From assembly GCF_003583365.1 (NCBI RefSeq), contig NZ_QXED01000008.1:248001-312000 (forward strand): 64,000 bases of DNA, given 5' to 3'. The translations under genes and the position numbers were made by a program. Of the stretch, positions 2,135 to 20,300 are shown piece after piece; positions within the stretch are counted from its first letter, which is position 1, and every line of letters starts with the position of its first letter. This DNA is from Fibrisoma montanum. GTDB lineage: Bacteria; Bacteroidota; Bacteroidia; Cytophagales; Spirosomataceae. Under the pieces are notes generated by a model. That model was not told the DNA's origin. It saw nothing but the letters and a program-made list of their open reading frames with translations, and made no database searches.

Positions 2135-4234
<2,100 letters not shown>

Positions 4235-4262
4235 TTTGTAAACCAAAACCCCAATTTTCACA

Positions 4263-4598
4263 ATGAAAACGTTGTTTTTTTCTTTATTTCTATCATTTGT
4301 CAGCATTGTAGCATTTGCTCAAAATCCAATTGATGGCAACTGGAAAGGTAGCCGTGAAACGCCGAACGGTACTTTTGAAGTAAACTATACCTTCAAGGTA
4401 GAAGGCAACAAATTAACAGGAACCTGGAAAACTCAATTCGGAGAGTCTCCTATACAGGAAGGGACTGTTGATGGCAAAAAGATTTCGTACAGTATCACAT
4501 TTAACGATCGTAAAATGAGTTACACTGGTGAATTAGTGTCTGATAAAGAATTAGTTGTTAAAAGTGAGCGAGGTGAGATGAAGCTTGCCAAGCAGTAG
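4263..4598 (+). CDS. Small secreted protein of unknown function
   Basis: 111 residues: a clear signal peptide (about 1-20, ending AFA) and a ~90-residue mature part rich in beta-strand patterns (NWKGSRETPNGTFEVNYTF, GNKLTGTW). It resembles small lipocalin-like or beta-barrel domains found beside glycoside hydrolases in Bacteroidota, but I cannot assign a family firmly. It starts 28 bases after the double esterase and is followed by a strong terminator, so it is probably the last gene of that transcript. The base composition is visibly more A+T-rich than the esterases. Confidence 0.75.
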   Translation: MKTLFFSLFLSFVSIVAFAQNPIDGNWKGSRETPNGTFEVNYTFKVEGNKLTGTWKTQFGESPIQEGTVDGKKISYSITFNDRKMSYTGELVSDKELVVKSERGEMKLAKQ

Positions 4599-4606
4599 GA
4601 AATTTT

Positions 4607-4650
4607 CGCCGTTTAACTGGGCAAAAAAGCTCAGTTAAACGGCGTTTTTA
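4607..4650 (+). terminator. Rho-independent terminator after the small secreted protein
   Basis: A perfect 13-bp stem (4607-4619 CGCCGTTTAACTG with 4632-4644), a 12-base loop and then TTTTTA. Confidence 0.9.
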
Positions 4651-4702
4651 GAAAGCAGATAGTCACTATTTAAGGTTTCTGCTCAACAAACACTAGATCT
4701 CC

Positions 4703-5803
4703 ATGATTTCAAAAAGAAACTTCGTGGCTGTAAGTACGGCCATTTTCATGATAGGAACCGTCTCTGGATTTTCTCAATCTATTCCATCATTAAAAGATGC
4801 GTTTAAACGAGATTTCGGAATTGGTACGTGTCTGAACAACGCCCAGATTGAAGAACGCGACCCCAAAATGACCGAGTTCATCGTCAGGCAATTCAACATG
4901 GCCACACCGGAAAATGTCATGAAAGCCGGGCCTATCCATCCGAAATGGGATACATATAATTTCGAGATGGCCGACAAGCTGGTGGCGTTCGGCAAAAAGC
5001 ACAACATCAAAATCAACGGCCATACGCTTGTCTGGCATAGCCAGTTGCCGCCGTTTATTCGCGGGATCAAGAGTTCAGATTCTATTCGGACGTTCTTCAC
5101 GGAGCACGTCAAAACCGTGGCCGGGCGCTATAAAGGCAAAGTGTTCTCGTGGGATGTTGTCAACGAAGCGCTCAACGAAGATGGCACCATGCGTAAATCA
5201 GTGTTTCTGCAACACCTCGGCGACAATTTCGTAACCGAAGCCTTCCGGCTGGCGCAGCAGGCAGACCCTAAAGCTGAACTGTATTACAACGACTACAACA
5301 ACGAACAACCGGCCAAGCGGGCGGGCTGCATCGCTCTCATCAAAAAGATAAAAGATGCGGGCGTTCGTATCGACGGCGTCGGTATTCAGGGGCACTGGCA
5401 TGTGGGCAAAGTTCCCTTCAAAGACATTGAGGAAAGCATTCTTCAGTATGCGGCTTTGGGATTAAAAGTCATGTTTACCGAGCTGGACATTGAAGTCCTG
5501 CCCCGCAACTTTCAGGGAGCCGACGTGAACCAGCGAATGGTAAATAATGAGCAATCGAATCCGTATGTGAATGGCCTTCCCGACAATGTTCAGCAGCAAC
5601 TCGCTGCTGATTACGAAGCCTTATTCAAACTATTTCTTAAGCACAAGGACAAAGTTACCCGCGTCACGTTCTGGGGCGTGAACGACGGCGATAGCTGGCT
5701 GAACAACTGGCCAATCCGGGGCCGGACCAGCTACCCGCTCCTATTCGACCGCAACAACCAGCCCAAACCCGCTTTTGAGAAGGTAATTGCCCTAAAGAAG
5801 TAA
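4703..5803 (+). CDS. GH10 endo-1,4-beta-xylanase
   Basis: 366 residues with a signal peptide (about 1-25). It is a complete GH10 barrel: HTLVWHSQLP (about 107-116), acid/base Glu155 in WDVVNEALNEDG, and nucleophile Glu260 in MFTELDIEVLP. Aromatic residues near the C-terminus ([14 protein letters not shown]) complete the substrate cleft. It hydrolyses internal beta-1,4 bonds of xylan, and the GH8 and esterase neighbours fit this. It has its own terminators on both sides, so it is probably transcribed alone. The last 198 coding bases occur again at 9720-9917 beyond the next gene with 9 differences, 8 of them synonymous. The 3' end of this gene may therefore have been replaced when that gene was inserted. 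Confidence 0.95.
   Translation: MISKRNFVAVSTAIFMIGTVSGFSQSIPSLKDAFKRDFGIGTCLNNAQIEERDPKMTEFIVRQFNMATPENVMKAGPIHPKWDTYNFEMADKLVAFGKKHNIKINGHTLVWHSQLPPFIRGIKSSDSIRTFFTEHVKTVAGRYKGKVFSWDVVNEALNEDGTMRKSVFLQHLGDNFVTEAFRLAQQADPKAELYYNDYNNEQPAKRAGCIALIKKIKDAGVRIDGVGIQGHWHVGKVPFKDIEESILQYAALGLKVMFTELDIEVLPRNFQGADVNQRMVNNEQSNPYVNGLPDNVQQQLAADYEALFKLFLKHKDKVTRVTFWGVNDGDSWLNNWPIRGRTSYPLLFDRNNQPKPAFEKVIALKK
5603..5803 (+). repeat. 3' end of the xylanase gene, copy A of a long direct repeat
   Basis: This 201-base stretch (66 codons plus stop) is repeated at 9720-9920. I count 9 mismatches in the 198 coding bases, about 95% identity. Six fall in the first 36 bases; the longest identical block is 67 bases. 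Outside the repeat, both flanks of the two copies are unrelated. See the matching pseudogene entry. Confidence 0.93.
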
Positions 5804-5810
5804 AATCAGG

Positions 5811-5862
5811 CAAAAAGATGTGCCGCCGTTAACTTTTAAGTTAACGGCGGCACATCTTTTTG
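5811..5862 (+). terminator. Strong terminator after the GH10 gene
   Basis: A near-perfect stem of about 25 bp (5811-5835 with 5838-5862) ends in CTTTTTG. The symmetrical A and T tracts make it usable from either strand. It isolates the next gene from the xylanase transcript. Confidence 0.9.
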
Positions 5863-5906
5863 CTTTGTATCTTATTTCAAGTCAGTTGATTTACTAAATT
5901 ATATAT

Positions 5907-8900
5907 ATGAACCAGAAACTTACTGACATCGAGACCGCACTACTACGCGTCGATGGGGCTACTTTCCAGCGGACCTGCGATGAATATTTGTTCTGTCGAT
6001 ACGGAGCCGATTTTCGGCACATAACACGAACTGGAACTCAACCAGGTAAAATGCAGACGACAAAGGGGACTCCAGATACCTATGTCGTGCTACCCAGTAA
6101 TAAGTATGTTCTGATTGAATATACGAAACAGCAGACTTGTCTGCTCAAGAAACTGCAAGACGATGTAGCTAAGTGTTTGGACTCAAGTAAGACTGGCTTA
6201 AAGCAGGCTCAGATACAGCGAATTATTATAATACACGCTAGTAAGTTGACCACTGATGAGGATAATACCCTTCGTAGTGGTTGTCCCGTGCCTTTAGAAA
6301 TAATTGGCTTAGACGCACTGGCGTTAGCTATCCATAACGACTTTCGTCAATTAGCTCGTCGCTACTTGGATATAGCCTATGATACGTTACAGCTGCAGAC
6401 ACCTGTCGAATTCATTGCGGAACATGCCCGTAAGGCAGTGGGAGAGAATAATCCCTTGTCCAACCCACTTCGGTATCGAGAAGATGAATTAGAGATACTA
6501 TTGAACAAAATTAATAGTCAGGATGTAACGGTACTGACCGGAGGACAAGGTGTAGGCAAAACCCGTTTGGCCTTGGAGGCCCTGCAGAAGTATTGCCAAA
6601 CTAGCCCAGACTACGAACCATATTGTATAGCAAATAAATACACGTCGCTGCTTGAAGATTTAAACGACCTTGTCCGGTCAAAAAGGAAATACATCTTTTT
6701 GATTGATGACGCCAACCGGCAGACACCCATTCTACTTGAAACATTAGAAAACCTGTACGCTAGACCCGAGATATCATTCAAAATTATTCTGACGGTTCGA
6801 GATTATGCGTTTGACGTTGTAAGTAAGCACCTCCAACCTTACCGCTGGGACTCATATTCCATTGGAAGGTTCACCGATGAGCAAATCATGCAGTTAATCG
6901 CAGAAGAACCGTTTTCAATAGGCAATCAGCGATTTCAACAACGCATTCGTGATCTGGCCAACGGTAATCCCCGTTTGGCTATTATGGCGGCCAAGCTGGC
7001 TTTAGAAAAGCAAAACCTATACGCACTCAACGACGCTACAGATTTGTACGTCAGATACTACGATACCTTAACTGACAGTGAGAATAGATCTCTACTGGTT
7101 GATTCGACTCGCTTAAAAGTGCTTGGCTTATTGGCTGTATTCCGACAAATTGACTTATTACAGGAGTCGTTCGTTAGTCGGCTGACCTCAGCTTTCGGCT
7201 TAACTCGCGACACATTAGCGGCCGAATTAGCAGGTCTGGAAAAAGACGAGCTCGCTGATGTTTACCTGACTGACCAGAGCTTTTTCCGTTTATCCGACCA
7301 GAACTTGGCAATCTACGCCGTGTATCAGGTTTTCGTTGATAAAAAATTGCTTAGTGTGGAAGCCTTATTAACGGAGTTCTTCGAGGATTATCCGCAACGC
7401 ATTCGGGATGCATTTTATGGGGTTATCAACGCTTTTGATCAGGAACGAATCATCAATGATATCAAGCTCGTTACAAATCAGTATTATGGTTCAATAAGAA
7501 GCGACGATGCTAAAGCCTATAAGTTTTTAGACGTTTTCTTCATCGCCTTACCAACCGAAACGCTTGACTACTTATTGACACTATCTGAAAACCTTCCTTC
7601 TCTACAAAAGCAGTGGCGCGAAAAGGATATTTTATGGGAATTGAAAAAGGATGAGGGTCCGTTGAAAGACCGGTTACAGTTATTGTTTAACTTCTTCATT
7701 GGCTTCAATGAACATTTTGACATCGCGCTTGAACTACTGGTAAAGTTTGCGGAAAGTGCTCCTGATTCAGTACCACTACTAACCAATTTGATTAAAGATC
7801 GACTGGCCTTTCGACCAGAAGATGCGCAATATATGGAGCTTAGGCAGGCACTCTTGCTTCAATATCTCATAGATGAAACGCAGTCTGGCAACGAAGCAGC
7901 ACGCCGTCTAATCTTTGCCGTGTTGTCATCATTCTTGCAGTCTGAGTTTCGAAGCACAACGTCAAGAGGGCGTGGAATTACATTTACTACAATGCCATAC
8001 CCTGTGCAGGAGCCCTTCACTTCATTACGCAGTACGCTTTGGGGGTTTGTCCGCGATCAGTTTTCGAAGTACCCTGACGAATGCCGATCAATCTTATGCT
8101 CCTACAAGTCAACTTACTCGCCACGGGACAACGCGTCGCTGCGGGAATTTGACAAGGGTTACATCGTTCCATTGATTGAGCAGCATCTAACGCCAAACGA
8201 TTTTGATGATTGCCACTTCGTGAACGAATACGTTCGTTTTTTGAATCGTAGTGGTCTACAATCAACCCAAATGGACCAACTGGCAGAGCGCTTCCAGAAT
8301 CGTGAGTACTCGCTTTACCTGCTGCTTGACTGGCATAGCTATCGAGGGCGTGACACCGATGATGAGATGTGGGAAAAACCCGAACAGTATAAATTAAAGA
8401 AGCAGAACGAACTATGGGAAAAACTACATCTTACCTCAATAGTAGACATCGAACGATTATTTGATGATATTTTTAGCTTGATGAGTAAGCCGGTCAATAT
8501 TTCCTCCATGCTTGATAAGCCATTAGAAGCAATATTGAGTGGAGTCAGACAGCGCAACCCTGAATTGTTCAAGGAGACGATTATAGCGTTTTCATCACGT
8601 GAATGGCCGCTAACCGTTGCAGTAGGTCGTATAGTAGGAGCGGCCTTCAACTACGAGATTGCAGTGCCTGAAGAGTGGTATAGCGTGTTTGCCGGTGCCA
8701 AGTATCGCAATGCTGAATGGCGACTAAACTTCTTTAGCATGTTACCGGCTTCTGCTGTAAATACTAACTGGTCGGATAAGCTTATTCAGTGTTTTCAAGA
8801 GCAGTCTATTGATGGTTTTTATCTGCCCGACAAATGGTGGCAGCATTATCAATCAGTACGTCCAACCATTTACCGGGATATACTGACCATTTTGGCCGAT

Positions 8901-9689
8901 AGGCACGAACAAACAGGCATGCGGTATTCATTATGGCACGATTTTTTTAAAGATCGAATCAACTTGTTTAATGATACAGACTTACCCGTGCTTAAGAAGG
9001 TATATCTGCAATTGTTCAGAATGGAACACTCATCAGCAGGCGGATTCGACTACTCCCGAAAAAACCTGAAAGCTTTACTATCGCGTGATCCTTCGTTTTT
9101 GATTGATTTTATCGAAGCTCACTATAAACGATTAAAGGGGGACTCGATAGCTCATCCCCACATTGAAAATTTAGCTTTCATTTGGGAACTCCCTGATGCC
9201 GTCAAATGGGCTTTGCAAATAGTCCGCATTATGAAAAGCCAGAAGCGGCTTAGCTGGTATGGCCGAAACTACGAACCTTTTTTCCAACATGTAAGCGATG
9301 AGCATAAAGGACTCACGCATGATTTCCTTGATGAGTATGTTAAAACATACGCAAATGATGTGCGTGAGATTGGAAGCATGGTACAAGCTCTTCAGCATAT
9401 GCATAAGTATAACGAATGGCTACTATGCGTCCGGGCCTTTTTGACTTACAATCAGTCTGTCGAAGCCTTTAAGAAAATCAGCTGGGCACCTAATATGCTC
9501 TCTGGTTCCGGGAAGATGAATTTTGATCAGATAAAAGCCGATCGACTAAAGCAAGTTCTTCAACAAGTCCGGCAGATGCCCAAAAAATTACCTTACTTGG
9601 AACATGTTAAATATTTAGAGTGGTCTATCATTATTCATGAAAAAGAGGCTGAAGTAGAACGACGTCGTCAGTTTGGCGAAGACGATTAA
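5907..9689 (+). CDS. Nuclease-STAND NTPase with helical C-terminus, probable antiphage protein
   Basis: 1260 residues, no signal peptide or membrane segment. Residues ~10-160 look like a PD-(D/E)XK restriction-nuclease fold: GTPDTY (Asp57) then VLIEYTKQ (Glu71, Lys74). The NTPase part (~185-400) has Walker A GGQGVGKT (212-219), Walker B YIFLIDDA (262-269), a TVRDY sensor-like motif (Arg298) and GNPRLA (353-358), the GxP motif typical of STAND/NB-ARC proteins. The remaining ~850 residues are helical, repeat-like and unrecognised, as in the sensor arms of Avs-type defence proteins. It may be of the nSTAND3 type. Inferred model: a phage signal triggers oligomerisation and DNA cleavage. The gene is visibly A+T-richer than its neighbours, stands alone, and lies between two copies of the xylanase 3' end, all signs of transfer. 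An ATG with AT-rich upstream sequence was taken as start. Confidence 0.75.
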   Translation: MNQKLTDIETALLRVDGATFQRTCDEYLFCRYGADFRHITRTGTQPGKMQTTKGTPDTYVVLPSNKYVLIEYTKQQTCLLKKLQDDVAKCLDSSKTGLKQAQIQRIIIIHASKLTTDEDNTLRSGCPVPLEIIGLDALALAIHNDFRQLARRYLDIAYDTLQLQTPVEFIAEHARKAVGENNPLSNPLRYREDELEILLNKINSQDVTVLTGGQGVGKTRLALEALQKYCQTSPDYEPYCIANKYTSLLEDLNDLVRSKRKYIFLIDDANRQTPILLETLENLYARPEISFKIILTVRDYAFDVVSKHLQPYRWDSYSIGRFTDEQIMQLIAEEPFSIGNQRFQQRIRDLANGNPRLAIMAAKLALEKQNLYALNDATDLYVRYYDTLTDSENRSLLVDSTRLKVLGLLAVFRQIDLLQESFVSRLTSAFGLTRDTLAAELAGLEKDELADVYLTDQSFFRLSDQNLAIYAVYQVFVDKKLLSVEALLTEFFEDYPQRIRDAFYGVINAFDQERIINDIKLVTNQYYGSIRSDDAKAYKFLDVFFIALPTETLDYLLTLSENLPSLQKQWREKDILWELKKDEGPLKDRLQLLFNFFIGFNEHFDIALELLVKFAESAPDSVPLLTNLIKDRLAFRPEDAQYMELRQALLLQYLIDETQSGNEAARRLIFAVLSSFLQSEFRSTTSRGRGITFTTMPYPVQEPFTSLRSTLWGFVRDQFSKYPDECRSILCSYKSTYSPRDNASLREFDKGYIVPLIEQHLTPNDFDDCHFVNEYVRFLNRSGLQSTQMDQLAERFQNREYSLYLLLDWHSYRGRDTDDEMWEKPEQYKLKKQNELWEKLHLTSIVDIERLFDDIFSLMSKPVNISSMLDKPLEAILSGVRQRNPELFKETIIAFSSREWPLTVAVGRIVGAAFNYEIAVPEEWYSVFAGAKYRNAEWRLNFFSMLPASAVNTNWSDKLIQCFQEQSIDGFYLPDKWWQHYQSVRPTIYRDILTILADRHEQTGMRYSLWHDFFKDRINLFNDTDLPVLKKVYLQLFRMEHSSAGGFDYSRKNLKALLSRDPSFLIDFIEAHYKRLKGDSIAHPHIENLAFIWELPDAVKWALQIVRIMKSQKRLSWYGRNYEPFFQHVSDEHKGLTHDFLDEYVKTYANDVREIGSMVQALQHMHKYNEWLLCVRAFLTYNQSVEAFKKISWAPNMLSGSGKMNFDQIKADRLKQVLQQVRQMPKKLPYLEHVKYLEWSIIIHEKEAEVERRRQFGEDD

Positions 9690-9710
9690 CAAGGCGACTC
9701 TTTACACAAC

Positions 9711-9920
9711 ATGAGTAGGGCCGCTGATTATGAAGCGTTGTTCAAACTGTTTCTCAAGCACAAGGACAAAGTTACCCGCGTCACGTTCTGGGGCGTGAAT
9801 GACGGCGATAGCTGGCTGAACAACTGGCCAATCCGGGGCCGGACCAGCTACCCGCTCCTATTCGACCACAACAACCAGCCCAAACCCGCTTTTGAGAAGG
9901 TAATTGCCCTAAAGAAATGA
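9711..9920 (+). pseudogene. Remnant 3' end of a GH10 xylanase gene (copy B of the direct repeat)
   Basis: The last 66 residues are the GH10 C-terminus ([11 protein letters not shown] to VIALKK) with one substitution, Arg to His. Homology to 5603-5803 starts abruptly at 9720; the ATG at 9711 and the codons before 9720 are unrelated, so this is a fragment without signal peptide or active-site residues. Eight of the nine base differences are silent third-position changes, so the fragment diverged while it was part of an intact xylanase gene. It begins 21 bases after the STAND gene stop and no terminator hairpin follows it. It is either a leftover of a tandem paralogue or the original resident gene end displaced by an insertion. 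Confidence 0.9.
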
Positions 9921-9962
9921 TTGAAGGCAATCAGCCTGAGTGAATAGTCGAACAGGTTATGC

Positions 9963-10535
9963 TCATCTCAGTACGCTTACCATGCCCTCTACGTCCAGAA
10001 CGTAGTCCGGTTTGGTGTTGAGGATGGCCTGCTGGGGCATGTAAGCGACCTGAGCCGTGTCGGGGTGCTGAACGATGGTGAGCCCACCGGCGCGTTTGAT
10101 AGCTTGCAGACCGGCTGATCCGTCGGCGTTGGCTCCGGACAGCAGAATGCCGGTCAGGGCCGAGCCGTAGACGTCGGCGGCCGATTCGAACGTTACGTCT
10201 ATGGAAGGGCGGCTGTAGTTTACCTTCTCGGAATCATCGAGAGAGAACGTGCCGTCATGTTCAATCAGCAGATGGTAATCGGCCGGGGCCAGGTAGATGT
10301 GTCCCGGCAGAATGGCGTCCTTGTCCTCCACTTCCTGAAGCGGCAGGCTGGTTTTTAACGCAAACAAATCGGCCAGCGACGTATCGGTGGCGCTTTTGCG
10401 GTGGAGCACAATCACCAGCGCAAAAGTCAGGGGTGGCCGCAAAGCCGGGAGCAGATTCAGCAAAACGTCGATGCTCCCGGTTGAGCCGCCAATGAGAACC
10501 ATGGCGCTGTTGCTGACTAGTCGATTTTCCGCCAT
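9963..10535 (-). CDS. cheB: CheB-type protein-glutamate methylesterase, catalytic domain only
   Basis: 190 residues from the ATG at 10535; the frame is open further upstream but that part overlaps cheR and does not resemble CheB. The catalytic triad residues are all present: Ser18 (GGSTGS), His45 (VLHRKS) and Asp138 (GANADGS). The usual N-terminal receiver domain is absent, so activity cannot be switched by phosphorylation of its own Asp. Family members demethylate or deamidate receptor glutamyl residues. It overlaps the 3' end of cheR by 19 bases, which implies translational coupling. With no receptor gene nearby, its target is unknown and may be a sensor kinase in the same operon. Confidence 0.9.
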   Translation of the reverse strand: MAENRLVSNSAMVLIGGSTGSIDVLLNLLPALRPPLTFALVIVLHRKSATDTSLADLFALKTSLPLQEVEDKDAILPGHIYLAPADYHLLIEHDGTFSLDDSEKVNYSRPSIDVTFESAADVYGSALTGILLSGANADGSAGLQAIKRAGGLTIVQHPDTAQVAYMPQQAILNTKPDYVLDVEGMVSVLR

Positions 10536-11326
10536 ATTTTTTCGCTGCCTACCTGTTTGTATTTCTGTCGGATGCCCGAGAAACGTAGCGTCTCTTTTGA
10601 TCCCAGCCCCAGGAAGCTGAGCAGGCCCAGGCTCTCGTCGAACAGCGTCAGGACGCGATCCTGCAGGGTTTTGTCGAAATAGATCAGTACGTTCCGGCAC
10701 AGGATCAGGTCAAACTCGTTGAACGACCGGTCGGAGACGAGGTTGTGGGTTGAGAACACCATCTTCCGGGTCAGTTCCTCGTTGAATTTAACGTAGTCGT
10801 ATTGCGCAGTGTAATAGCCGGAGAAGTCGGCCGTTCCCCCCGACAGTACATAGTTCTCGGAATACTGCCGCATGGGGGCGAGCGCATAAATGCCTTTGCG
10901 GGCCACCTCCAGCACCTCCGGGTTCAGATCGGTGGCATAGAGCAGCGACTTGTGCAGCAGATTGGCTTCCTTCAGGAGAATGGCCATGGAAAACACTTCC
11001 TCACCGGTTGAACAGCCTGCGTGCCAGACCCGGATGAAGGGCTTGGCGGTCAGGGCGGGCAATACCTCCTTTCGGAGCGCCCGGTAAAACGACGGATCAC
11101 GAAACATTTCGGTGACGTTCACCGTCAGTTCTTCCACGAACCGTTTCAGGTAATCGGCATCGGTACGGACCCGGTACCGCAATTCAGCAAAGCTCGGAAA
11201 CTTATCCAGCGTCCACAGCCGGTTGATACGTCGCTTGATCGACGCCCGGGCGTACTGGGTAAAGTCGTAGCCGTATACTTCCAGCAGATCGTTCAGCAGC
11301 AACGTAACCTCTTCCTCCTCAATCAT
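10517..11326 (-). CDS. cheR: CheR-type protein-glutamate O-methyltransferase
   Basis: 269 residues. An N-terminal helical CheR_N domain (about 1-60) precedes a SAM-dependent methyltransferase domain. Motif I is HAGCSTGEEVFS (about 112-123) and FDLILCRNVLIYFD is the conserved CheR motif near residue 200. It transfers methyl groups from SAM to receptor glutamates. It starts 8 bases after the upstream receiver gene and overlaps cheB, so the three genes form one unit. No TPR or pentapeptide-binding beta-subdomain extension is obvious beyond the core. Confidence 0.92.
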   Translation of the reverse strand: MIEEEEVTLLLNDLLEVYGYDFTQYARASIKRRINRLWTLDKFPSFAELRYRVRTDADYLKRFVEELTVNVTEMFRDPSFYRALRKEVLPALTAKPFIRVWHAGCSTGEEVFSMAILLKEANLLHKSLLYATDLNPEVLEVARKGIYALAPMRQYSENYVLSGGTADFSGYYTAQYDYVKFNEELTRKMVFSTHNLVSDRSFNEFDLILCRNVLIYFDKTLQDRVLTLFDESLGLLSFLGLGSKETLRFSGIRQKYKQVGSEKIWRKID

Positions 11327-11334
11327 AACACCTG

Positions 11335-11700
11335 TCAGATACGCGATAGCAGCGCCAGGAGCCGATCAACATCGATGGGCTTGGCAATGTAGTCGGTGGC
11401 CCCGGCCCGCAGGCACTTCTCCCGGTCGCCGACCATTGCCTGCGCCGTTACAGCAATAATGGGCATGTCGCTCCGGCCCGGAATACGTTTGATACGCGGA
11501 ATAGCCTCGTACCCATCCATGTCCGGCATCATCATATCGATCAGAACGGCATCGACCACCGCGTCGGTACTCAGGATATCCAGCGCTTCGGGGGCACCCT
11601 GGCACGACCGGCACTCGAATCCTTTCGCTTTCAGCGTGGCCGTCAGGGCGAAGATGTTCCGCGTGTCGTCGTCAATGATCAGCACTCGTTTTTTCTCCAT
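11335..11700 (-). CDS. Single-domain response regulator (CheY-like receiver)
   Basis: 121 residues, receiver domain only. Acidic pocket IIDDD (9-12), phospho-acceptor Asp55 in VLIDMMMPDMDGYE, conserved Thr/Ala in VTAQAM and the Lys of AKPID. It has no output domain, so it acts through protein contacts or as a phosphate sink. It closely resembles the third receiver of the large hybrid kinase encoded just upstream (LLDMMMPQMDGYE, VTAKAM, TKPVD). The kinase gene ends 112 bases upstream and cheR starts 8 bases downstream. Confidence 0.93.
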   Translation of the reverse strand: MEKKRVLIIDDDTRNIFALTATLKAKGFECRSCQGAPEALDILSTDAVVDAVLIDMMMPDMDGYEAIPRIKRIPGRSDMPIIAVTAQAMVGDREKCLRAGATDYIAKPIDVDRLLALLSRI

Positions 11701-11709
11701 AGTCTTACG

Positions 11710-11747
11710 GTTTGTGGTTTTCAGTGTGGTTTGTTGTTTGTGGTTTT
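11710..11747. repeat. Short direct repeat in the gap upstream of the receiver gene
   Basis: GTTTGTGGTTTT occurs at 11710-11721 and 11736-11747, with a shorter relative (GTGTGGTTTG) between. The 112-base gap otherwise shows nothing clear. It may be a slippage-made repeat or a leader for the receiver-cheR-cheB part of the operon. Confidence 0.5.
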
Positions 11748-11812
11748 GCGTTTACGGCTTTCTGTGTTTGAACAGAATGTAAATTCCACTAGGCCCCGAA
11801 CAACAAACCATC

Positions 11813-14800
11813 TCACCGTTCGTACAGCCAGACGCGCAGCAGGGATATGAGCTGGTCAATATCGACGGGTTTAGTGATGTAATCCGATGCACCGGCTTCG
11901 ATGCATTTTTCGCGGTCGCCGGTCATGGCTTTAGCCGTAACGGCAATGACCGGCAGGTTTTTGTATCTGTACTGCTCCCGAATCTTCCGGGCCGTTTCGT
12001 ACCCGTCCATCTGCGGCATCATCATATCCAGCAGCACCACGTCGACGTTCGGGTTCTCTTCCAGCCGCTGCAGGGCTTCTTTGCCATCCAGTGCCGCAAT
12101 AACGCTCATGTTGTACTGCTCCAGCGCCTTCGACAGCGAGAAGATGTTCCGCACGTCGTCGTCGGCCACCAGCACGGTTTTTCCGCTCAGAACCTGCGTC
12201 AGTGCGCCCAGTTTTTTCGTCGCGCCGTTGTTGTTGGCCGCCGACTTATTCTCTTCCACCAGATGCAGGAACAGCGACACCTCGTCGAGCATACGCTGGT
12301 ACGAATGGGCCGTTTTGACGATGATCGAGTCGGCGTACTTCTTAATCCGCAACTCTTCCGACAGCGACAGACTTTTACCGGTGAAGATGATAATCGGCAG
12401 ACTTTCCAGCTCCGGATTCTTCCGGGCCTCTTCAAGCGCATCGTACGCTTTGTTGTCGGGGATACCCATATCCAGAATCACGCAGTCAACCTCGCGTTGT
12501 TTCAGGGCCGTGATTCCTTCCGAAATATCGCTTTTCAGTTCCGAGTTGATGTTGAAGGTTTCCAGGAAGTAAGCCAGCGCTTTGGCGTGTTTGGGGTTGT
12601 CTTCAATAATCAGCACCTTTTTTGGGTCCCGATTCAGAACGTACTCAATCTTGCCGAAAACCTCCTGCATCTGCTCAAACGCCATGGGTTTATCCACAAA
12701 ATCGATAGCTCCTTTCAACAAACTCTCGTTTTTGAGCTTATGCGACGACATGATGTGCACCGGAATGGGCCGCGTCTGGGGGTTCGCTTTCAGCGCGTCC
12801 ATAACCTCCCAGCCGCTCATAACGGGCAACTGAATATCCAGCAGAATCCCGACAGGCCGGTACGCAGCCGCCAGACGCAGGCCCTCGTCGCCCCGTACGG
12901 CGACAATACCTTTGTAGCCTTTCCTGCGGGCAAATTCGAGCAGCGACCTGGCAAAGTTTGTGTCGTCCTCGATGATCAGGATGAGCTTGTCGTGCTCCGT
13001 GATCGTCTGCCGGTCGTCCGGCACGGACTCTGGGATGGTGGGGCTGATGTATTTCTTGGTTTCAGCCGCCGGGGCATCGTTCGGCGACGGCTGTTCGTGC
13101 ACCGGTGGCTTCTGGCTGTGGGTTGGTACAACCTCCGCCGGGGCTGGGGAAACAGCGGTGCCGGGAACGGCAATGACCGGAATAACCAATGTAAACTCAC
13201 TGCCCACATCGACCTGACTGCTCAGGTTGATTTCGCCCCCGAGCAACTTGGCCAGTTCGCGGCTGATGGACAGGCCCAGACCCGTTCCGCCATACTTCCG
13301 CTTGGTCGACCCGTCGGCCTGCTGAAAGGCCTCGAAAATGAGCGGTTGCTTCTCGGGCGGTATGCCAATGCCCGTATCCTTTACGATAAAGCAAAGCCGG
13401 TTCGCCGACCGATTCTCCGGTTTGATCGTCAGCGTAACGCTGCCCTTCGCCGTGAATTTGAGCGCGTTGGACATCAGATTTTTCAGAATCTGCCCAAGCC
13501 TCATCTTATCGGTTTCGATGATAGCCGGTACGTCCGGCGCGATCGTGATGCCAAAATTCAGCCCTTTCTCCTGCGCCATGATGCCGAACAACGCCCGCAT
13601 TTCGTCGCCGATGTCGCTGACCGGTATGCGTTCGTAATCGAGCTTCATCTGCCCGGCTTCAATCTTCGACAGGTCCAGGATCTCGTCGATCAGCCCCAGC
13701 AGCCCGTTCCCCGACGACTGAATCACGCGGGCGTACTCCACCTGCTCGCTGGTCAGGTTCTCGTCCAGGTTTTCGGCCAGCAATCGGCTCAGCAGGAGAA
13801 TGGAATTGAGGGGCGTCCGTAATTCGTGCGACATATTGGCCAGGAATTCGGACTTGTAGCGGGTGGCCAGTTCCAGTTCATCGGCCTTCTTCTGAATCTC
13901 GTCGTTTTTCTCTTCCAGCAGCAGCCCCCGCTCTTCCAGTTCGGTGTTGGTTTGCTGCAGTTCTTCCTGCTGCACACGGAGTTCTTCTTCGGACGCCTGC
14001 AACCGCTGGGCCTGCATCTCCAGTTCCGTATTCAGGTTTTCCAGTTCGCTGTGCTGCACCTGTAGTTCCTCGGCCTGCGCCTGAGTCTCTTCCAGCAGGT
14101 GCTGCATTTTACCGTAGTCGAGCGCGGCATTTACCCCGATGGCCATGGCCTCGCGGTTGTTTTCTACAAACTCGACCTCCAGCGCGGTAGGCGGACGAAG
14201 CAACCCGAGTTCAATGACGCCGATACTTACGCCGTCGTAGATCAGCGGACTAATAATGAGCGACGCCGGGGTGGCCTCTCCCAGCGACGAACTCACCTTG
14301 CCGTAGTCGGCCGGTACGTCCTCTACCACGACGGTCTTCTTCCGCTCAATGGCCTGACCAACCAGCCCCTGTCCACCACTGACGACATCCGGTGCATTTT
14401 GGGCTGCGTACCGTCCGGCCAGCCGGAATTTACGCTCGTTGTCGAGAATGTACATAGTGGCGAGAGGAACGCCCATATATTCGGTCAAGGCAGCTAGCAC
14501 CCGATTGGCCAGCTTTTTTGGATCTTTCTCACCCCGGATGGCATCACTGACGGCCACGGCACCCGTTTGCAGCCAGTTCCGACTGTTCAGATCCGTAAAG
14601 GTCCGTTCGAGCGAAGCCGCCATCTGGTTCAGGGCCGTAGCGATCCGGCCCAGTTCATCGTCCTCCGCGTCAGTGCTGCGGACTGCATAGTCGCCACCGG
14701 CAATTTTACGGGTAATGCCCTCCATAATGGAGATCCGCCGGTTGGTTTTGACGTATTGCTCCTCGGCTTCCTGCTGTTCGGCGATCCGGTTGTCCATATC

Positions 14801-15442
14801 CCGTTTGATACGGAAATAGGCAAAACTCGTAATGAGCATGGAAATCAGGGCCGTAATAACCAGCAGAATAGGCGTGTAGGTAATGTACACCTGCTGCTGA
14901 TCGATTCGGGCCTGCAGCAACCGATTCTCCTGAGTTTTGATCTGATTGAGTACGGCGCGCAGATCATCCATCACCTGCTTACCACGTATCATCTCCCGAT
15001 ACCGTCTGGCGGTATCCTGGCCGGTAACAGCCCCGGCTCTGGTCAGGTCAATGACCTTCTGCATCTGCTCGAACTTTGTTTCGAACAGGGCTTTTACCTG
15101 CGCCAGGTTTTTCTGCTGGGCGGGATTATCGGCCATGAGTGAACTAAGCCGGTTGAAACTGGCCACTACTTTCTCGTAACTGCCGTCGAACGGCTGCAGA
15201 AAGACCGGGTCGAGGGTAACCAGATAGCCCCGCTGCCCTGTTTCAGCATCTTTCATGTACGAGATTATATTTTCCGACTCAATCAGTACCTCGTTGGTGT
15301 GGTTGACCAGCTCGGAATTACTGATCAGGCGCTGGATGCTTATAAATGAAGCCCCCAGACTGAGCAGCAGCAAAATCGTGGACAGGGTGAAGACAACCTG
15401 AAGTTGCCGGATAATTGAGTTCGAGGTAGTGTTTGGTGGCAT
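11813..15442 (-). CDS. Hybrid histidine kinase: CHASE3-HAMP-GAF-HisKA-HATPase-3 receivers
   Basis: 1209 residues. Membrane helices at about 17-36 and 188-209 flank a CHASE3-type sensor region (DAETGQRGYLVT near 65-76). HAMP follows (about 210-285), then a GAF domain (about 293-440), a long Glu/Gln-rich coiled coil (445-525), HisKA with His539 (SHELRTPLN) and the HATPase (N box near 655-660, G boxes DTGIGI and GGTGLGLS). A Pro-rich linker leads to three receivers with acceptors Asp869, Asp991 and Asp1139. It starts 21 bases after the preceding kinase gene. Signals are unknown. The coiled coil between GAF and HisKA is the type often seen in Cytophagales kinases that signal by phosphorelay. Confidence 0.95.
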   Translation of the reverse strand: MPPNTTSNSIIRQLQVVFTLSTILLLLSLGASFISIQRLISNSELVNHTNEVLIESENIISYMKDAETGQRGYLVTLDPVFLQPFDGSYEKVVASFNRLSSLMADNPAQQKNLAQVKALFETKFEQMQKVIDLTRAGAVTGQDTARRYREMIRGKQVMDDLRAVLNQIKTQENRLLQARIDQQQVYITYTPILLVITALISMLITSFAYFRIKRDMDNRIAEQQEAEEQYVKTNRRISIMEGITRKIAGGDYAVRSTDAEDDELGRIATALNQMAASLERTFTDLNSRNWLQTGAVAVSDAIRGEKDPKKLANRVLAALTEYMGVPLATMYILDNERKFRLAGRYAAQNAPDVVSGGQGLVGQAIERKKTVVVEDVPADYGKVSSSLGEATPASLIISPLIYDGVSIGVIELGLLRPPTALEVEFVENNREAMAIGVNAALDYGKMQHLLEETQAQAEELQVQHSELENLNTELEMQAQRLQASEEELRVQQEELQQTNTELEERGLLLEEKNDEIQKKADELELATRYKSEFLANMSHELRTPLNSILLLSRLLAENLDENLTSEQVEYARVIQSSGNGLLGLIDEILDLSKIEAGQMKLDYERIPVSDIGDEMRALFGIMAQEKGLNFGITIAPDVPAIIETDKMRLGQILKNLMSNALKFTAKGSVTLTIKPENRSANRLCFIVKDTGIGIPPEKQPLIFEAFQQADGSTKRKYGGTGLGLSISRELAKLLGGEINLSSQVDVGSEFTLVIPVIAVPGTAVSPAPAEVVPTHSQKPPVHEQPSPNDAPAAETKKYISPTIPESVPDDRQTITEHDKLILIIEDDTNFARSLLEFARRKGYKGIVAVRGDEGLRLAAAYRPVGILLDIQLPVMSGWEVMDALKANPQTRPIPVHIMSSHKLKNESLLKGAIDFVDKPMAFEQMQEVFGKIEYVLNRDPKKVLIIEDNPKHAKALAYFLETFNINSELKSDISEGITALKQREVDCVILDMGIPDNKAYDALEEARKNPELESLPIIIFTGKSLSLSEELRIKKYADSIIVKTAHSYQRMLDEVSLFLHLVEENKSAANNNGATKKLGALTQVLSGKTVLVADDDVRNIFSLSKALEQYNMSVIAALDGKEALQRLEENPNVDVVLLDMMMPQMDGYETARKIREQYRYKNLPVIAVTAKAMTGDREKCIEAGASDYITKPVDIDQLISLLRVWLYER

Positions 15443-15463
15443 AGAAAAAGGAATATAGCGGCT

Positions 15464-17056
15464 TTACCGGGTTTCAGTAACCGGCCCTTCGATGGTTTGT
15501 CTGACCGGCAGAACGAGAATGAACCTGGCTCCTTCGTCCTCGCGGCTGCGGGCCGAGATTAGACCGTGGTGCTTTTCAATGTTTTTGCGCGCAATGGCAA
15601 GGCCGATGCCGGTACCTTCGTAGTTGGTCCGGTTGTGGAGCCGCTGGAAAATGACGAAGATCCGATCCAGAAACTTTTCGTCGAAGCCGATGCCGTTATC
15701 CTGCACCACAATCCGGCAGTACGGACCGTCTGGCGCCGGGCAGCCGTCAATGTCTTTCGTGTCGATGCGTTCGGCCCGGATCGTGATAACGGGCGATACG
15801 TTCTCTTTGGCAAACTTCAGGGCGTTGCTGATCAGGTTCTGAAAAACCTGCCGGATGCGCGTCGGAATCACGTCCAGCTCCGGAATAGGCCCGATGTCGA
15901 CAACAGCCCTTTTTTTCGAAACTACGTCCTCAAAATCCTGCAGCAGGTCGGTGAGCAGGCTGTTCAGATTGGTGAAATGAAACGCTTCGGGGGCCGATAG
16001 CTGCGTGTACGACAGCAGGTCGTTGATGAGCGTCGCCATCCGCGCCGACGACCGGATGGTCCGGTCGAGGTACGGAGCCGCTTCCGGGTTATCTTTCAGG
16101 TACTTTTCTTTGATGGTATCGTTGAGCAGCTGAATCTTCCGCAGCGGTTCCTTCAGGTCGTGCGACACCACCCACGTGAACTGCTGGAGTTCATGGTTTG
16201 TCCGTTCCAGTTCGGCATTCTTGACCCGGAGTTCATTCGTCCGGACTTCCACTTCACGCTCCAGCAGTTCGGCAGCCTGCTTTTGCGGGTGAATGTCCGT
16301 AAACGTACCGATCCAGCGCGTGAGAGTTCCCTGCTGCCGAACCGGAATGATCCGCAGCAGGTGATAGCGGAAATCGCCTGTTGTCAGCTCCCTGAGCCGG
16401 ACTTCCCGCGTAAACTCGACCCCGTCGATCAGCGACCGCTTCCATTCCTCCCAGACGTTGTCGTCGGCGTGTACATCCGGAAACGTAGTCGGCGAGGGGG
16501 CATAGCGAAACCAGTATTCGTTAACGTATTCGAGCTGTCCATTTGAAGCCACTGTGAAAGCCACCTGGGGTAATGACGACAGTACGCCCTGAAGCTCCTG
16601 CATGCGTTCCGTCAGGACCTCCTGTGCCTGTTTACGCACCTCCACTTCTTTCCGCAGCGAATCCTGAGCCGCCCGGAGTTCCTGCTGCTGTTCGTACAGC
16701 TTCTGCAGCGTTTTGACTTTCAGAACCAGAATGTCCGGGTCGACCGGCTTGGTCAGGTAGTCGACTCCGCCCGACGTATAGCCTTTGGTAATGAACTTCT
16801 TGTCGGTGTTCACCGCCGACAGGAAAATAATGGACGTGAACCGGGCTTTACTGAAGCCGGCAATGGCATTCGCTACCTCAAACCCGTCCATATCCGGCAT
16901 CTGCACATCGAGGATAATGACCGAATAAGACGTAGTCAGCACTTTCCGCAAGGCTTCTTCTCCCGATTCGGCCGTGTCGACCGTAAATCGATGCAGCTCA
17001 AGTATTTTCTTCAGAGGCAGGATATTTTCCCGTCTGTCATCAACAATCAGGATCAT
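15464..17056 (-). CDS. Receiver-PAS-histidine kinase
   Basis: 530 residues, no membrane segment. An N-terminal receiver (acidic pocket at 6-7, acceptor Asp50 in IILDVQMPDMDGFE, Lys of TKPVD) is followed by a coiled linker (115-155), a PAS domain (about 155-255), a second coiled helix and HisKA with His299 (SHDLKEPLRKI). The C-terminal HATPase has DNGIGFD and GTGIGLAI. As a soluble kinase with an input receiver, it probably acts as a relay that takes phosphate from another kinase. It is the first gene of the five-gene minus-strand operon that continues to cheB. Confidence 0.95.
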   Translation of the reverse strand: MILIVDDRRENILPLKKILELHRFTVDTAESGEEALRKVLTTSYSVIILDVQMPDMDGFEVANAIAGFSKARFTSIIFLSAVNTDKKFITKGYTSGGVDYLTKPVDPDILVLKVKTLQKLYEQQQELRAAQDSLRKEVEVRKQAQEVLTERMQELQGVLSSLPQVAFTVASNGQLEYVNEYWFRYAPSPTTFPDVHADDNVWEEWKRSLIDGVEFTREVRLRELTTGDFRYHLLRIIPVRQQGTLTRWIGTFTDIHPQKQAAELLEREVEVRTNELRVKNAELERTNHELQQFTWVVSHDLKEPLRKIQLLNDTIKEKYLKDNPEAAPYLDRTIRSSARMATLINDLLSYTQLSAPEAFHFTNLNSLLTDLLQDFEDVVSKKRAVVDIGPIPELDVIPTRIRQVFQNLISNALKFAKENVSPVITIRAERIDTKDIDGCPAPDGPYCRIVVQDNGIGFDEKFLDRIFVIFQRLHNRTNYEGTGIGLAIARKNIEKHHGLISARSREDEGARFILVLPVRQTIEGPVTETR

Positions 17057-17146
17057 GCAGGGTCATTCATTAGATCGATGCGGGCTATCCGGGCAGGTTT
17101 ACGCTTCCTTACCTGGTTCTGTTCCGCGCCCGGCCGGCACAAAGTC

Positions 17147-17181
17147 CAAAATTATAGTCAAAGATAATGAGCGAAAACAAA
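17147..17181 (-). promoter_or_regulatory. Candidate Bacteroidota promoter for the signalling operon
   Basis: On the minus strand TAATTTTG (17147-17154) matches the -7 consensus TAnnTTTG, and TTTG (17178-17181) could be the -33 box, but the 23-base spacing is longer than the usual 19-21. A second overlapping -7 match, TATCTTTG (17159-17166), has no well-placed -33 partner. The boxes lie about 90-125 bases upstream of the start at 17056. Confidence 0.4.
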
Positions 17182-17244
17182 CCAGTGGTTTAATGCACCC
17201 AAATCAGCCGGCGCTCACCAAACGTTTACGCTTGTTAATAAACG

Positions 17245-17279
17245 AAAAACCCTGACGAAATGCTATCGTCAGGGTTTTT
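17245..17279 (-). terminator. Terminator of the giant repeat-protein gene
   Basis: A 14-bp perfect stem (AAAAACCCTGACGA at 17245-17258 with 17266-17279) and a 7-base loop. T tracts exist on either strand; it sits 26 bases past the stop of the minus-strand gene. Confidence 0.9.
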
Positions 17280-17304
17280 ATTCGACACATTCTCTCTATG
17301 TGCA

Positions 17305-20300
17305 CTATCGTCCAGCCGTACGGCTTTTTGTCTTTTGAATCACAACCGGTACGCACTTCGCCGGCGGGCACTCACACTGAGTGTTCTGCAACACAACTGA
17401 CCGCTGCACAAAACATCCGGCTTGGGTGAATACCCGAACGATGTACGTCTGTGGCGTACCGGTCCGGCTGATGTTGCTGACAATGATTCCGCTCGCCGGA
17501 ATCGGCAGGGCTTCATTGTAGCTGGTCGCTCCGTTGTAGGTCGTGCCCGTCGATACGTCGAAGCGATCGTTCGGGCCGAAGTTGCCGATTGCTACCTGCC
17601 CATCGGAGCGCGACGTAGCGCCGTCGCAGGTGGCTTCCTGGGCCGTCAGCGTAACGCTGTCCGGGGCCGGGTTCACCACCGCATCGACTACGATGCTGCT
17701 GCTGCAACCGGTAATCAGGTTGGTTACGGTCAGCGTATACGAACCGCTGTTGGTCGTTGTTGCAGCCGGGATATTGACCACTGCCCCGCTGGCGGTAAAG
17801 CTGTTCGGCCCGGCCCAGGCGTAGGAAACTCCCGTCGACGATGTGGTACCTGTCAGCACCAGGGTTTCGCCCGCACAAACCGGTGGAGCGCTGGCTGCGA
17901 TAACCGGCGTGATGCAGTAGAAGCCCGCATCGACCGTTGTATTGTTCTCACCGGAGGCCAGTACATACGGTCCGGTCTGGCCCGTCACGCCGTTGGCATC
18001 GCTGTCGGTCGCGTCGTTGCCGGTGTTAGCCGTTGTCGACGTGAAGGCGTCCGGTTGTGTGAAGGCGACGACATAGGTAACCCCCGGCGTCAGGCCCGTG
18101 AAGCTGTAGACGCCACCGGCATTCGTCGTGGTAGTCAGCAATACGTTGCCGTTACCGCTGAGCAGCTGCACCGTTACGCCCGCAATACCCGGCTCACCCG
18201 TATCCTGCTGCCCATTCTGGTTGAGGTCGTTGAAGACCAGGTCGCCCAGGCTGGCCGGGCGGTAGAAGCCCGCATCCACCGACAGATCGATCTCACCCGA
18301 CGCCAGCGTGATGCTGCCCGTACGGCCGGTGAGCGGATCGGCATCCGAGTCCGTTGCCCCGTTGCCCCCCAGGTTAGCCGCCGTTGCCGAGTAGCCGGCC
18401 GGAGCCGTAAACTGCACCTGATACGGTACGCCCGGCGTCAGACCCGTGAAGCTGTAGACGCCACTGGCATTGGTCGTTGTCGTATTGACCACCGCGCCGT
18501 TCTGCAGCAGCTGCACCGTTACACCCGCAATACCCGGCTCACCCGCATCCTGCTGCCCGTTGGCGTTGAGGTCTTCGAAGACGAAGTCACCCAGAACCGC
18601 AAACTGCTGTGGCTGCAACAGCGCCGTATCGGTATCATCTTCGTTCGGTGTCGTGTCGCTGTTACCCGGCGTCGAGTCAATGTCATCACCACTGTCGGCG
18701 GTGATCTCGGCCCGGTTCGTAATGACACCGCCCGCCGTAGCCGTCAGCGTCATGCCGATGGTCAGCGTAGCCGACTCACCCGGTGCCAGACTGGCGATAG
18801 TTGCTACGGCATTGCTGCCCGACTGCGTGAAGCCCGGACTGGCCGCTGCATTGAAGGCCGTACCGTCGGGTATGAAGTCGGTCACCTGCGTATTGGTCGC
18901 GGTTAGTTCACCCTGGTTGGTGACGATCAGTTCGTAGGTTATGACCCCTCCCGGCAACAATGGACTTGGCGCAGAAACGATGTCTTTGGACAGGGCCAGA
19001 TCGAAGCGGAGCAGGTAGAAACCGGCATCGAGGGTATTGTTGGTCTCACCCGAAGCCAGCGTAATGCTCTGCGTTACGCCGTTGATCGCATCGCTGTCGG
19101 TCGCATCGTCCCCGCCCTGATCAGCCAGCGTGGCCGTGTAGTTGGCCGGGGCCGTGAAGCTCACCGAGTACGGTACACCCGGTGTCAGCGCGGTGAAGCT
19201 GTACACCCCACTCGAATCCGTGGTTGTAGTTGTCAGGGATACGCCATTGCTGATCAGCGTAACGGTTACGCCCGCTATACCCGGCTCACCCGCATCCTGG
19301 ATCCCGTTGCGGTTGGCATCGGCAAAGACCCGGTCGCCCAGCGCTGCCTGACGGTATACGCCCAGGTCCACGCTCGTGTTATTCTCACCGGAAGCCAGAA
19401 TATACACCCCGGTTTCACCATCGAGCGGGTTGGCATCCGAATCAAGCGCATCGTCTGCACCTTCATTATCCGCCGTGATCGTGAACATCGGCATCGGCGC
19501 AAACTGCACCTGGTAGGCTACTTCCGGCAGGAGATTCGTGAAGGTATACTGACCGTTTGCGTTCGTTGACGTAACCTGAACAACCACGCCGTTCTGGAGC
19601 AGACTCACGGTTACGCCCGGAACACCCGGCTCGCCCGGATCTTGAACACCATTGATATTAATATCCTCGAAGACGAAGTCGCCCAGGCTGGCCGGCAGCA
19701 GGAAGAAGCCCGCATCGAGAGTATTGTTGGTTTCACCCGAGGCCAGCGTGACGCTCTGGGTTACGCCGTTGATTGCATCGCTGTCGAGGGCATCATCTCC
19801 ACCCTGGTTACCCAGTGTGGCAGTGTAGCCGACCGGGGTTGTGAAGCGTACCTGATACGATACGCCCGGCGTCAGACCCGTGAAGCTGTAGACACCGTTG
19901 GCATCCGTCGTGACGAAGTCTACTACGGTACTGTCGCGGAGCAGACTCACCGTAACCCCCGGAATCCCTACTTCGCCCCCGTCCTGAATGCCGTTGCGGT
20001 TGGCATCGGCAAAGACGCGGTCGCCCAGGCTGGCCGGGCGGTAGAAGCCAGCATCGACGGTGAGGTTGTTTTCACCAGCGGCCAGCGTGTAACTGCCGGT
20101 TTGTCCGGTCAGCGGATTGACATCGGAATCAGCCACATCGTCGCCACCCTGATCGGCCAGCGTAGCCGTAAATCCGGCCGGAGCGGTGAAGCTCACGACA
20201 TACGCTACGTTCGGCACGAGTCCCGTGAAGCTGTAGACGCCACTGGCATTGGTCGTTGTGGTGTTGACTACCGTACCATTCTGCAAGAGATTGACAGTCA

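Follow-up and report, generated by a model that had tools for sequence, protein, structure and literature searches.

A probable single-protein, NLR-like antiphage receptor in Fibrisoma montanum, and the apparent carriage of its relatives as gene cassettes

The receptor gene and its domains

The 64,000-nucleotide stretch of Fibrisoma montanum DNA analysed here (the window; NCBI RefSeq assembly GCF_003583365.1, contig NZ_QXED01000008.1, positions 248,001–312,000) encodes a putative nuclease-STAND receptor of 1260 amino acids (aa) at 5907–9689 on the + strand. The ORF list and its translation give an intact open reading frame (ORF) of 1260 codons from ATG to stop, which is single-copy in the 7.79-Mb genome (search at E ≤ 0.001) and has relatives of equal length and architecture. 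The GC content of the gene is 0.436, against 0.524 and 0.558 in its flanks, and its third-position GC content (GC3) is 0.449 compared with 0.61 for a neighbouring GH10 gene and 0.71 for a histidine kinase gene; GC below that of the flanks was also found in 66 of the 68 relatives for which 8 kb or more of flank was available. An earlier note on this DNA, made from the sequence alone, had described a single protein of this length and a gene more A+T-rich than its surroundings, and both descriptions are borne out.

When 84,980 species genomes were searched by alignment, 175 relatives were confirmed, of which 80 were kept; 71 of these have complete ORFs with a length of 1200 aa or more, and the other nine loci, either shorter than this or truncated by a contig end, were excluded from the alignments. 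Conservation counts hereafter refer to 72 aligned proteins (the window protein and 71 full-length relatives).

Residues 1–160 (5907..6386, +) form a PD-(D/E)XK-like domain, based on an AlphaFold2 model and a match to Avs4 chain 8dgf_B. Block pLDDT in this model was 77–96, except for residues 41–50 (52) and 51–60 (75), and the order of elements, judged by eye, is that of a restriction endonuclease. The N-terminal motif is P56-D57...E71-x-T73, in which P56 and D57 are present in 72/72 proteins and E71 in 71/72; position 73 is Thr in 51, Ser in 20, Ala in one and Lys in none, and position 74 is Lys in just three, including the window protein. K82, D86 and C90 are invariant (72/72), with K82 and D86 in the helix that follows the motif. 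The fold is therefore PD-(D/E)XK-like with the canonical Lys missing: compared with the D/E/K residues of the Avs1–4 nucleases, D57 and E71 are kept and the third is replaced throughout. The nuclease-like N-terminus proposed in the earlier note thus holds for the fold and fails for the catalytic Lys. We propose D57 (6075–6077), E71 (6117–6119) and K82 (6150–6152) as the putative catalytic site (6075..6152, +), based on their conservation.

The replaced Lys also weighs against the nuclease assignment itself, as the domain could be inactive, or could act by another route such as nucleic-acid binding or the activation of partner effectors. Two groups of relatives offer possible alternative effectors. 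In six (L064, 6870–7987; L017, L038, L059, L078 and L079), the receptor gene is preceded by a gene pair encoding a protein of ~140 aa, membrane-bound by eye, and a protein of ~240 aa with a hydrophobic N-terminus and a deoxyribosyltransferase-like domain (in L064, Pfam E 1e-5, 26.1 bits, below the 28.8 cut-off). Two others (L051:7509–7976 and L037:162–602) have N-terminal extensions of ~150 aa that are weakly TIR-like (Pfam E 0.013 each, below cut-off), which are a possible second effector. Nevertheless, the gene pair is lacking in most relatives, and the near-complete retention of D57, E71, K82, D86 and C90 across phyla is what would be expected of a retained catalytic site; we regard a dead or non-nuclease fold as rather unlikely. 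The absence of partner genes reported in the earlier note is thus correct for the window, and not for the family.

Residues 161–400 (6387..7106, +) form a STAND NTPase core and lid, with fold matches to Avs5, plant NLRs and AAA+ proteins. Pfam nSTAND3 (PF20720) matches residues 196–269 at 28.7 bits, above the 27.2 cut-off, and matched 11/11 members of set A1 (E ≤ 0.1). Walker A (residues 212–219; 6540..6563, +) reads G212-x-x-G-x-G-K-T219 and Walker B (residues 262–270; 6690..6716, +) ends in IDDAN; Arg298 lies within TVRDY, and the GxP region is G353-N-P-R356. G212, G215, G217 and K218 of Walker A, D267, D268 and N270 of Walker B, and R298, G353, N354 and R356 are all identical in 72/72 proteins. 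By its score, its Walker motifs and its Arg sensor the protein belongs to the nSTAND3 group of STAND NTPases, and all four motifs that the earlier note had listed (Walker A, Walker B, Arg sensor and GxP) are present.

The remainder of the protein, residues 401–1260 (7107..9686, +), is an alpha-solenoid that we presume to be the sensor. The model of residues 395–1260 (pLDDT 86.2, pTM 0.68) consists of this solenoid and one beta-hairpin at residues 680–697 (7944..7997, +; model strands 286–293 and 296–303). Residues ~400–1260 have no match in Pfam (E ≤ 0.01), PADLOC (E ≤ 1) or NCBIfam (E ≤ 0.1); a profile search against PDB sequences gave a single match at E 0.14 and none better, and Foldseek matches were at the background level of helical repeats, with no clear structural relative. 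The solenoid evolves more rapidly than the front half (35% versus 52% mean column identity), yet its length is kept across phyla. The suggestion that the last ~850 helical residues are an undescribed sensor is accordingly supported, for a solenoid of ~860 residues.

Known systems, distribution and rival explanations

Pfam, the structure models and the 72-row alignment together reveal the three-part architecture of Avs/AVAST proteins: an effector, a STAND NTPase and a C-terminal part. Avs4 (AVAST type 4, PDB 8dgf) has the same order of a nuclease-like domain, a STAND NTPase and a long helical C-terminal part, and is the top Foldseek PDB match for residues 1–445; among the 50 VIA matches listed, only 8dgf_B covers the N-terminal domain (from residue 6), and the rest begin no earlier than residue 158. 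PADLOC and NCBIfam both hold Avs models. None of these matched the window protein in PADLOC (E ≤ 1; PDC-S73 only) or NCBIfam (E ≤ 0.1), and no Avs-named PADLOC model matched among 11 members. The PADLOC candidate PDC-S73 matches NTPase residues 198–268 (E 1.2e-6), which covers ~65 of 752 model positions and leaves the N- and C-terminal parts of the receptor unmatched; just 2/11 members matched it (E ≤ 1). Avs5 (PDB 9jap), as described in parts of PMC12931631, is a SIR2-nSTAND3-repeat sensor protein, with a SIR2 NADase effector and TPR/Sel1/PPR-type repeats, unlike the nuclease-like domain and solenoid without clear relative found here. By the models tested, the receptor is outside every named Avs type. 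The profile scans, the 71 full-length relatives and the Avs4 match support the nuclease-STAND reading of the earlier note, and we consider it likely that the protein is a single-protein, NLR-like antiphage receptor of Avs-like build that constitutes a separate family.

In addition to the missing Lys, several observations weigh against this reading. AAA+ NTPases and plant NLRs score within only 1–2 Z units of the Avs matches, so the NTPase match by itself is unspecific, and the scanned neighbours of the receptor gene in the window include no defence-like gene. Around 20 relatives, 160 PADLOC models were hit by 122 neighbour proteins versus 34 by 112 control proteins from the same contigs (154 and 129 before ORFs < 100 aa, > 1300 aa or further out were dropped); however, among the matches listed for neighbours, 21 of 25 are GajA models, each hit by two proteins, and control regions also gave restriction-type matches. 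For that reason, enrichment of defence genes near the relatives is not claimed.

Relatives were present in 8/150 genomes of the same taxonomic family in the first search and, in a search with the solenoid only, in 7/395 genomes of the phylum (own genome included in both). In five of these seven the frame is unbroken and has the standard length; the other two are split or carry stops. Judged by length, the five intact frames give no sign of another front domain, and effector swapping onto the same solenoid is not claimed. Hosts include Bacteroidota, Bacillota, Cyanobacteriota, Pseudomonadota, Ignavibacteriota and others, with more distant relatives on 13 Leptospira plasmids. In a tree of the 72 proteins (quick method), clustering by phylum is above chance, yet phyla, classes and genera are mixed at supported forks: Stenoxybacter (Neisseriaceae) inside Bacteroidota, Bacteroides with Capnocytophaga, and Mangrovimonas with Arenibacter. 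The copy in an archaeal metagenome-assembled genome (MAG; L028) is 99.9% identical to that of a Bacteroidota MAG (L024) and may be a binning error. Split, shortened or interrupted relatives were also observed (L054, L060, L072, L081 and L092; L097/L100; L099/L101). In Okeania (L082:6289–7938), several copies of ~225–280 bp of the L068 receptor start region stand in a row before the gene.

The distribution bears on two further explanations. STAND NTPases include transcription regulators such as MalT, and the protein could accordingly be a host regulator or stress switch with no immune role. We consider this highly improbable, in view of the sporadic distribution, the varied contexts, the lack of a host operon common to most loci and the failure to recognise a DNA-binding output domain in the receptor. 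The earlier note had held that a whole-protein match to a non-defence family, or homologues mainly in core-genome positions, would speak against its proposal; no such match was found, and the relatives are sporadic, with transfer between genera instead of core positions.

Alternatively, the receptor could guard against plasmids or other incoming DNA, with a sensor that binds DNA directly or a protein involved in replication or mobility. ParB- or ParA-like (AAA ATPase) genes lie within a few kb of the Leptospira plasmid relatives in three of four regions examined of the 13 records, and relatives located in cassette arrays (see the final section) could act against competing elements there. Against this, the known nuclease-STAND proteins with a similar front half, Avs1–4, recognise phage proteins, as reported in sections of PMC12931631, and we judge defence against such elements to be improbable. 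On one Leptospira plasmid (pLiSL2), a protein of ~1264 aa directly downstream of the relative (L009:15878–19672) resembles another nuclease-STAND type by eye and has just weak P-loop matches in Pfam.

As an antiphage receptor, the protein most likely works like an Avs protein. At rest, the long solenoid would keep the NTPase closed and nucleotide-bound; binding of a phage component by the solenoid would open the nSTAND3 NTPase, upon which receptor proteins would assemble and bring their N-terminal nuclease domains together, and the assembled domains would cut DNA and end the infection, often via cell death. In this model we infer the nuclease activity, the oligomerisation, the phage trigger and the outcome.

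Transfer of the gene and the setting of the window copy

Among 29 pairs of loci whose receptor genes have a nucleotide identity of 80% or more, the alignment block bearing the gene stops within 250 bp of it on both sides in 22; nine loci were left out of this comparison, and some pairs have little flank to compare. Between Mangrovimonas (L021) and Arenibacter (L022), identity is 96.3% over 3959 nt, and the block extends 112 bp upstream and 124 bp downstream of the gene, where 3.6 and 8 kb of flank were available. The Bacteroides and Capnocytophaga copies (L016–L023) are 86% identical in a block that ends 2 bp before and 1 bp after the gene (~8 kb available on each side), and those of Algoriphagus and a Flavobacteriaceae MAG (L026–L027) are 96% identical in a block that ends 4 bp ahead of the gene start; to the right, just 0.3 kb of sequence was available. 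The stretch common to L017 and L079 is 5.1 kb and consists of the receptor gene and its two upstream partners. More flank is common to Nostoc L069–L071, some Okeania pairs and one Leptospira pair, and additional common blocks outside the gene block were found for L013 and the window, L031–L056 and L068–L082. At the level of sequence, these comparisons show the receptor gene to be shared between genera, often with little more than the gene itself, as part of a scattered family that moves between distant bacteria. No tRNA genes were found at six loci, and Rfam at gathering cut-offs gave just group II intron pieces (in L022) across six sources.

The window copy lies between two direct repeats. 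The upstream copy (5603..5813, +) is the 3' end of a GH10 xylanase gene (4703–5803) and the downstream copy (9720..9930, +) is a remnant of the same 3' end; the repeat is 211 nt long and 93% identical. A perfect 26-nt inverted repeat between the GH10 gene and the receptor gene (5810..5863, +) is a probable GH10 terminator that would separate the two genes. A relative in a Spirosoma MAG (L013) has a like arrangement (94% over 154 nt). Repeat copies of the two genomes are 80–83% identical, less than within either genome, which suggests gene conversion or repeated insertion. Relative to L013, the receptor gene has a nonsynonymous to synonymous rate ratio (dN/dS) of 0.08 (dS ~1.1; undefined for the nuclease part), and by this measure the window copy is under purifying selection. 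Repeats at the gene gave some match in 7/71 loci, with direct repeats > 100 bp in four (L013, L040, L048 and L057); controls gave 8/180 placements in 2/20 loci, namely L130 (giant repetitive ORFs) and L123 (76%, 102 columns). Direct repeats are not claimed as a general feature of the family.

In G018, a genome from the same genus, the GH10 gene is present and the receptor absent. This genome offers no simple empty site, as the two flanks of the window copy are ~260 kb apart there: the right flank (9931–11700), compared with G018 contig 11, lies ~260 kb from the GH10 gene and is inverted, which places the receptor at a rearrangement breakpoint between the two genomes.

To the left of the receptor gene the window holds xylan-type genes (GH8, esterases and GH10), and to the right genes of chemotaxis-type signalling (CheB, CheR, response regulator and histidine kinase). 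Further on, 17305–32148 encodes a protein of 4947 aa with SdrD_B-like repeats and PKD-like and DUF11 domains, probably a giant surface adhesin.

Cassette arrays and a candidate recombinase in relatives

Integron cassettes follow a rule by which the GTTNNNN that opens a cassette is the complement of the NNNNAAC core in that cassette's own site. The receptor gene of Mangrovimonas L021 lies within a row of mostly small genes spaced by imperfect palindromes, mostly of ~130 bp, that start with NNNNAAC and end with GTTNNNN. A covariance model built from eight of these sites (R1) gave 25 matches in 78 sources; 13 of these lay outside L021, and 20 control regions (320 kb) had none. A second model built from 25 sites (R2) gave 46 matches, 45 of them in receptor loci and all 45 on the strand of the receptor, again with none in the controls, which were taken from the genomes of 20 relatives, most of which lack arrays. 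R2 scores are not independent for receptor loci, since R2 was partly built from them; the independent matches are the 13 of R1 outside L021 and those of R2 in loci that were not used for it (e.g., L026 and L091).

A site lies within 400 bp after the receptor gene in 10 of 77 family sources (R2, E ≤ 0.1), and in eight of these ten the exact complement of its 7-nt core is present upstream of the gene, at 41–168 bp in seven and at 1289 bp, ahead of the two partner genes, in L017. L066 and L020 break this rule, L020 having just 215 bp of upstream sequence. The eight cases amount to about six independent ones, as L024 is nearly identical to L028, and L090 is related to L091. When seven such 7-mers were sought upstream of other family members, 4 of 448 tests were positive. 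Among consecutive sites, the rule holds exactly in 21/31 pairs, including 11/11 in L021; in 20,000 shuffles of 28 pairs (three without a readable core were omitted), the mean was 1.5 and the maximum 8. The defining arrangement of an integron gene cassette, a site after the gene and the complementary core at its start, is therefore found by sequence in relatives, and not at the window copy. There, no attC-type site was detected in 4600–11000 with filters off, apart from one chance-level match inside the gene (8.8 bits, E 0.74); elsewhere in that genome a single weak site was found (C28, E 1.9e-5; 150 candidates scored per genome). In some hosts, the receptor family apparently travels as a swappable gene cassette.

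The Mangrovimonas spongiae genome (G562) has 44 sites (150 candidates scored), with arrays at L021:1–11822, at L149 (contig 3:1–16000) and at contig 7:61–13495; of nine cassette proteins scanned, five have no Pfam match (E ≤ 0.01) and one is barstar-like. The L017 array (2196–18169) has a recombinase fragment at its head, and the receptor is one of three genes in the cassette bounded by the sites at 6581 and 11856. In L158, a longer stretch of the same place as L152, the site of L152 was not reported.

At one end of Mangrovimonas contig 3 is a gene for a tyrosine recombinase of 401 aa (Phage_integrase family), with a site on the same strand ~755 bp downstream. Relatives of this recombinase were found in 8/12 receptor-locus genomes, its own included, and none at E ≤ 1e-40 in the other four (L028, L032, L066 and L091). 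Eight places were examined among the 12 recombinase matches listed: six have a downstream same-strand site (G562 C3, G152 C23, G563 C110 via L152, G151 C7, G572 C136 and G567 C1 via L017), G563 C115 has none, and at G567 C21 only 286 bp of contig follow the recombinase gene. Matches to the integron integrase IntI model (TIGR02249) were below cut-off in 10/10 genomes tested, and the leading ones leave approximately positions 180–237 unmatched, in a test for the extra domain; these genomes include G562, G563 and G152, three of the six with a site-linked recombinase, the others (G567, G151 and G572) being outside the set. A link between recombinase and receptor is weakened by their location in Mangrovimonas on separate contigs (C3 and C1, respectively), with end sites that differ.

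Antiphage cassettes of Vibrio chromosomal integrons are likewise defence-like, with an attC-type site core complementary to the cassette start. The Vibrio-type defence cassettes are size-reduced according to portions of PMC12409362, whereas the cassette of the relatives is a 3.7-kb gene, and once three genes of ~5 kb; unlike Vibrio, the hosts are mostly Bacteroidota, and the integron-integrase cut-off is not reached in the 10 genomes tested. An integron survey (PMC9024848) reports very few integrons in the phylum and one complete integron in Bacteroidetes proper, in Salinibacter. Among the titles and abstract openings listed in our literature searches, none concerned such arrays, although a published account may exist. 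On balance, the evidence for and against appears to us evenly weighted that integron-like arrays of Bacteroidota, served by a tyrosine recombinase other than IntI, trade whole NLR-like receptors (3.7 kb; once with two partners, ~5 kb) and have thereby spread the family to distant phyla.

Animal and plant NLRs have bacterial counterparts in the nuclease-STAND proteins, to which the family would add an unusual nuclease site and, in its solenoid of ~860 residues, an undescribed type of receptor part. As the receptor is kept across phyla at near-constant length, its trigger may be common to many phages. The cassette evidence suggests a concrete route by which Bacteroidota could copy, store and shuffle immune receptors encoded by a single gene.

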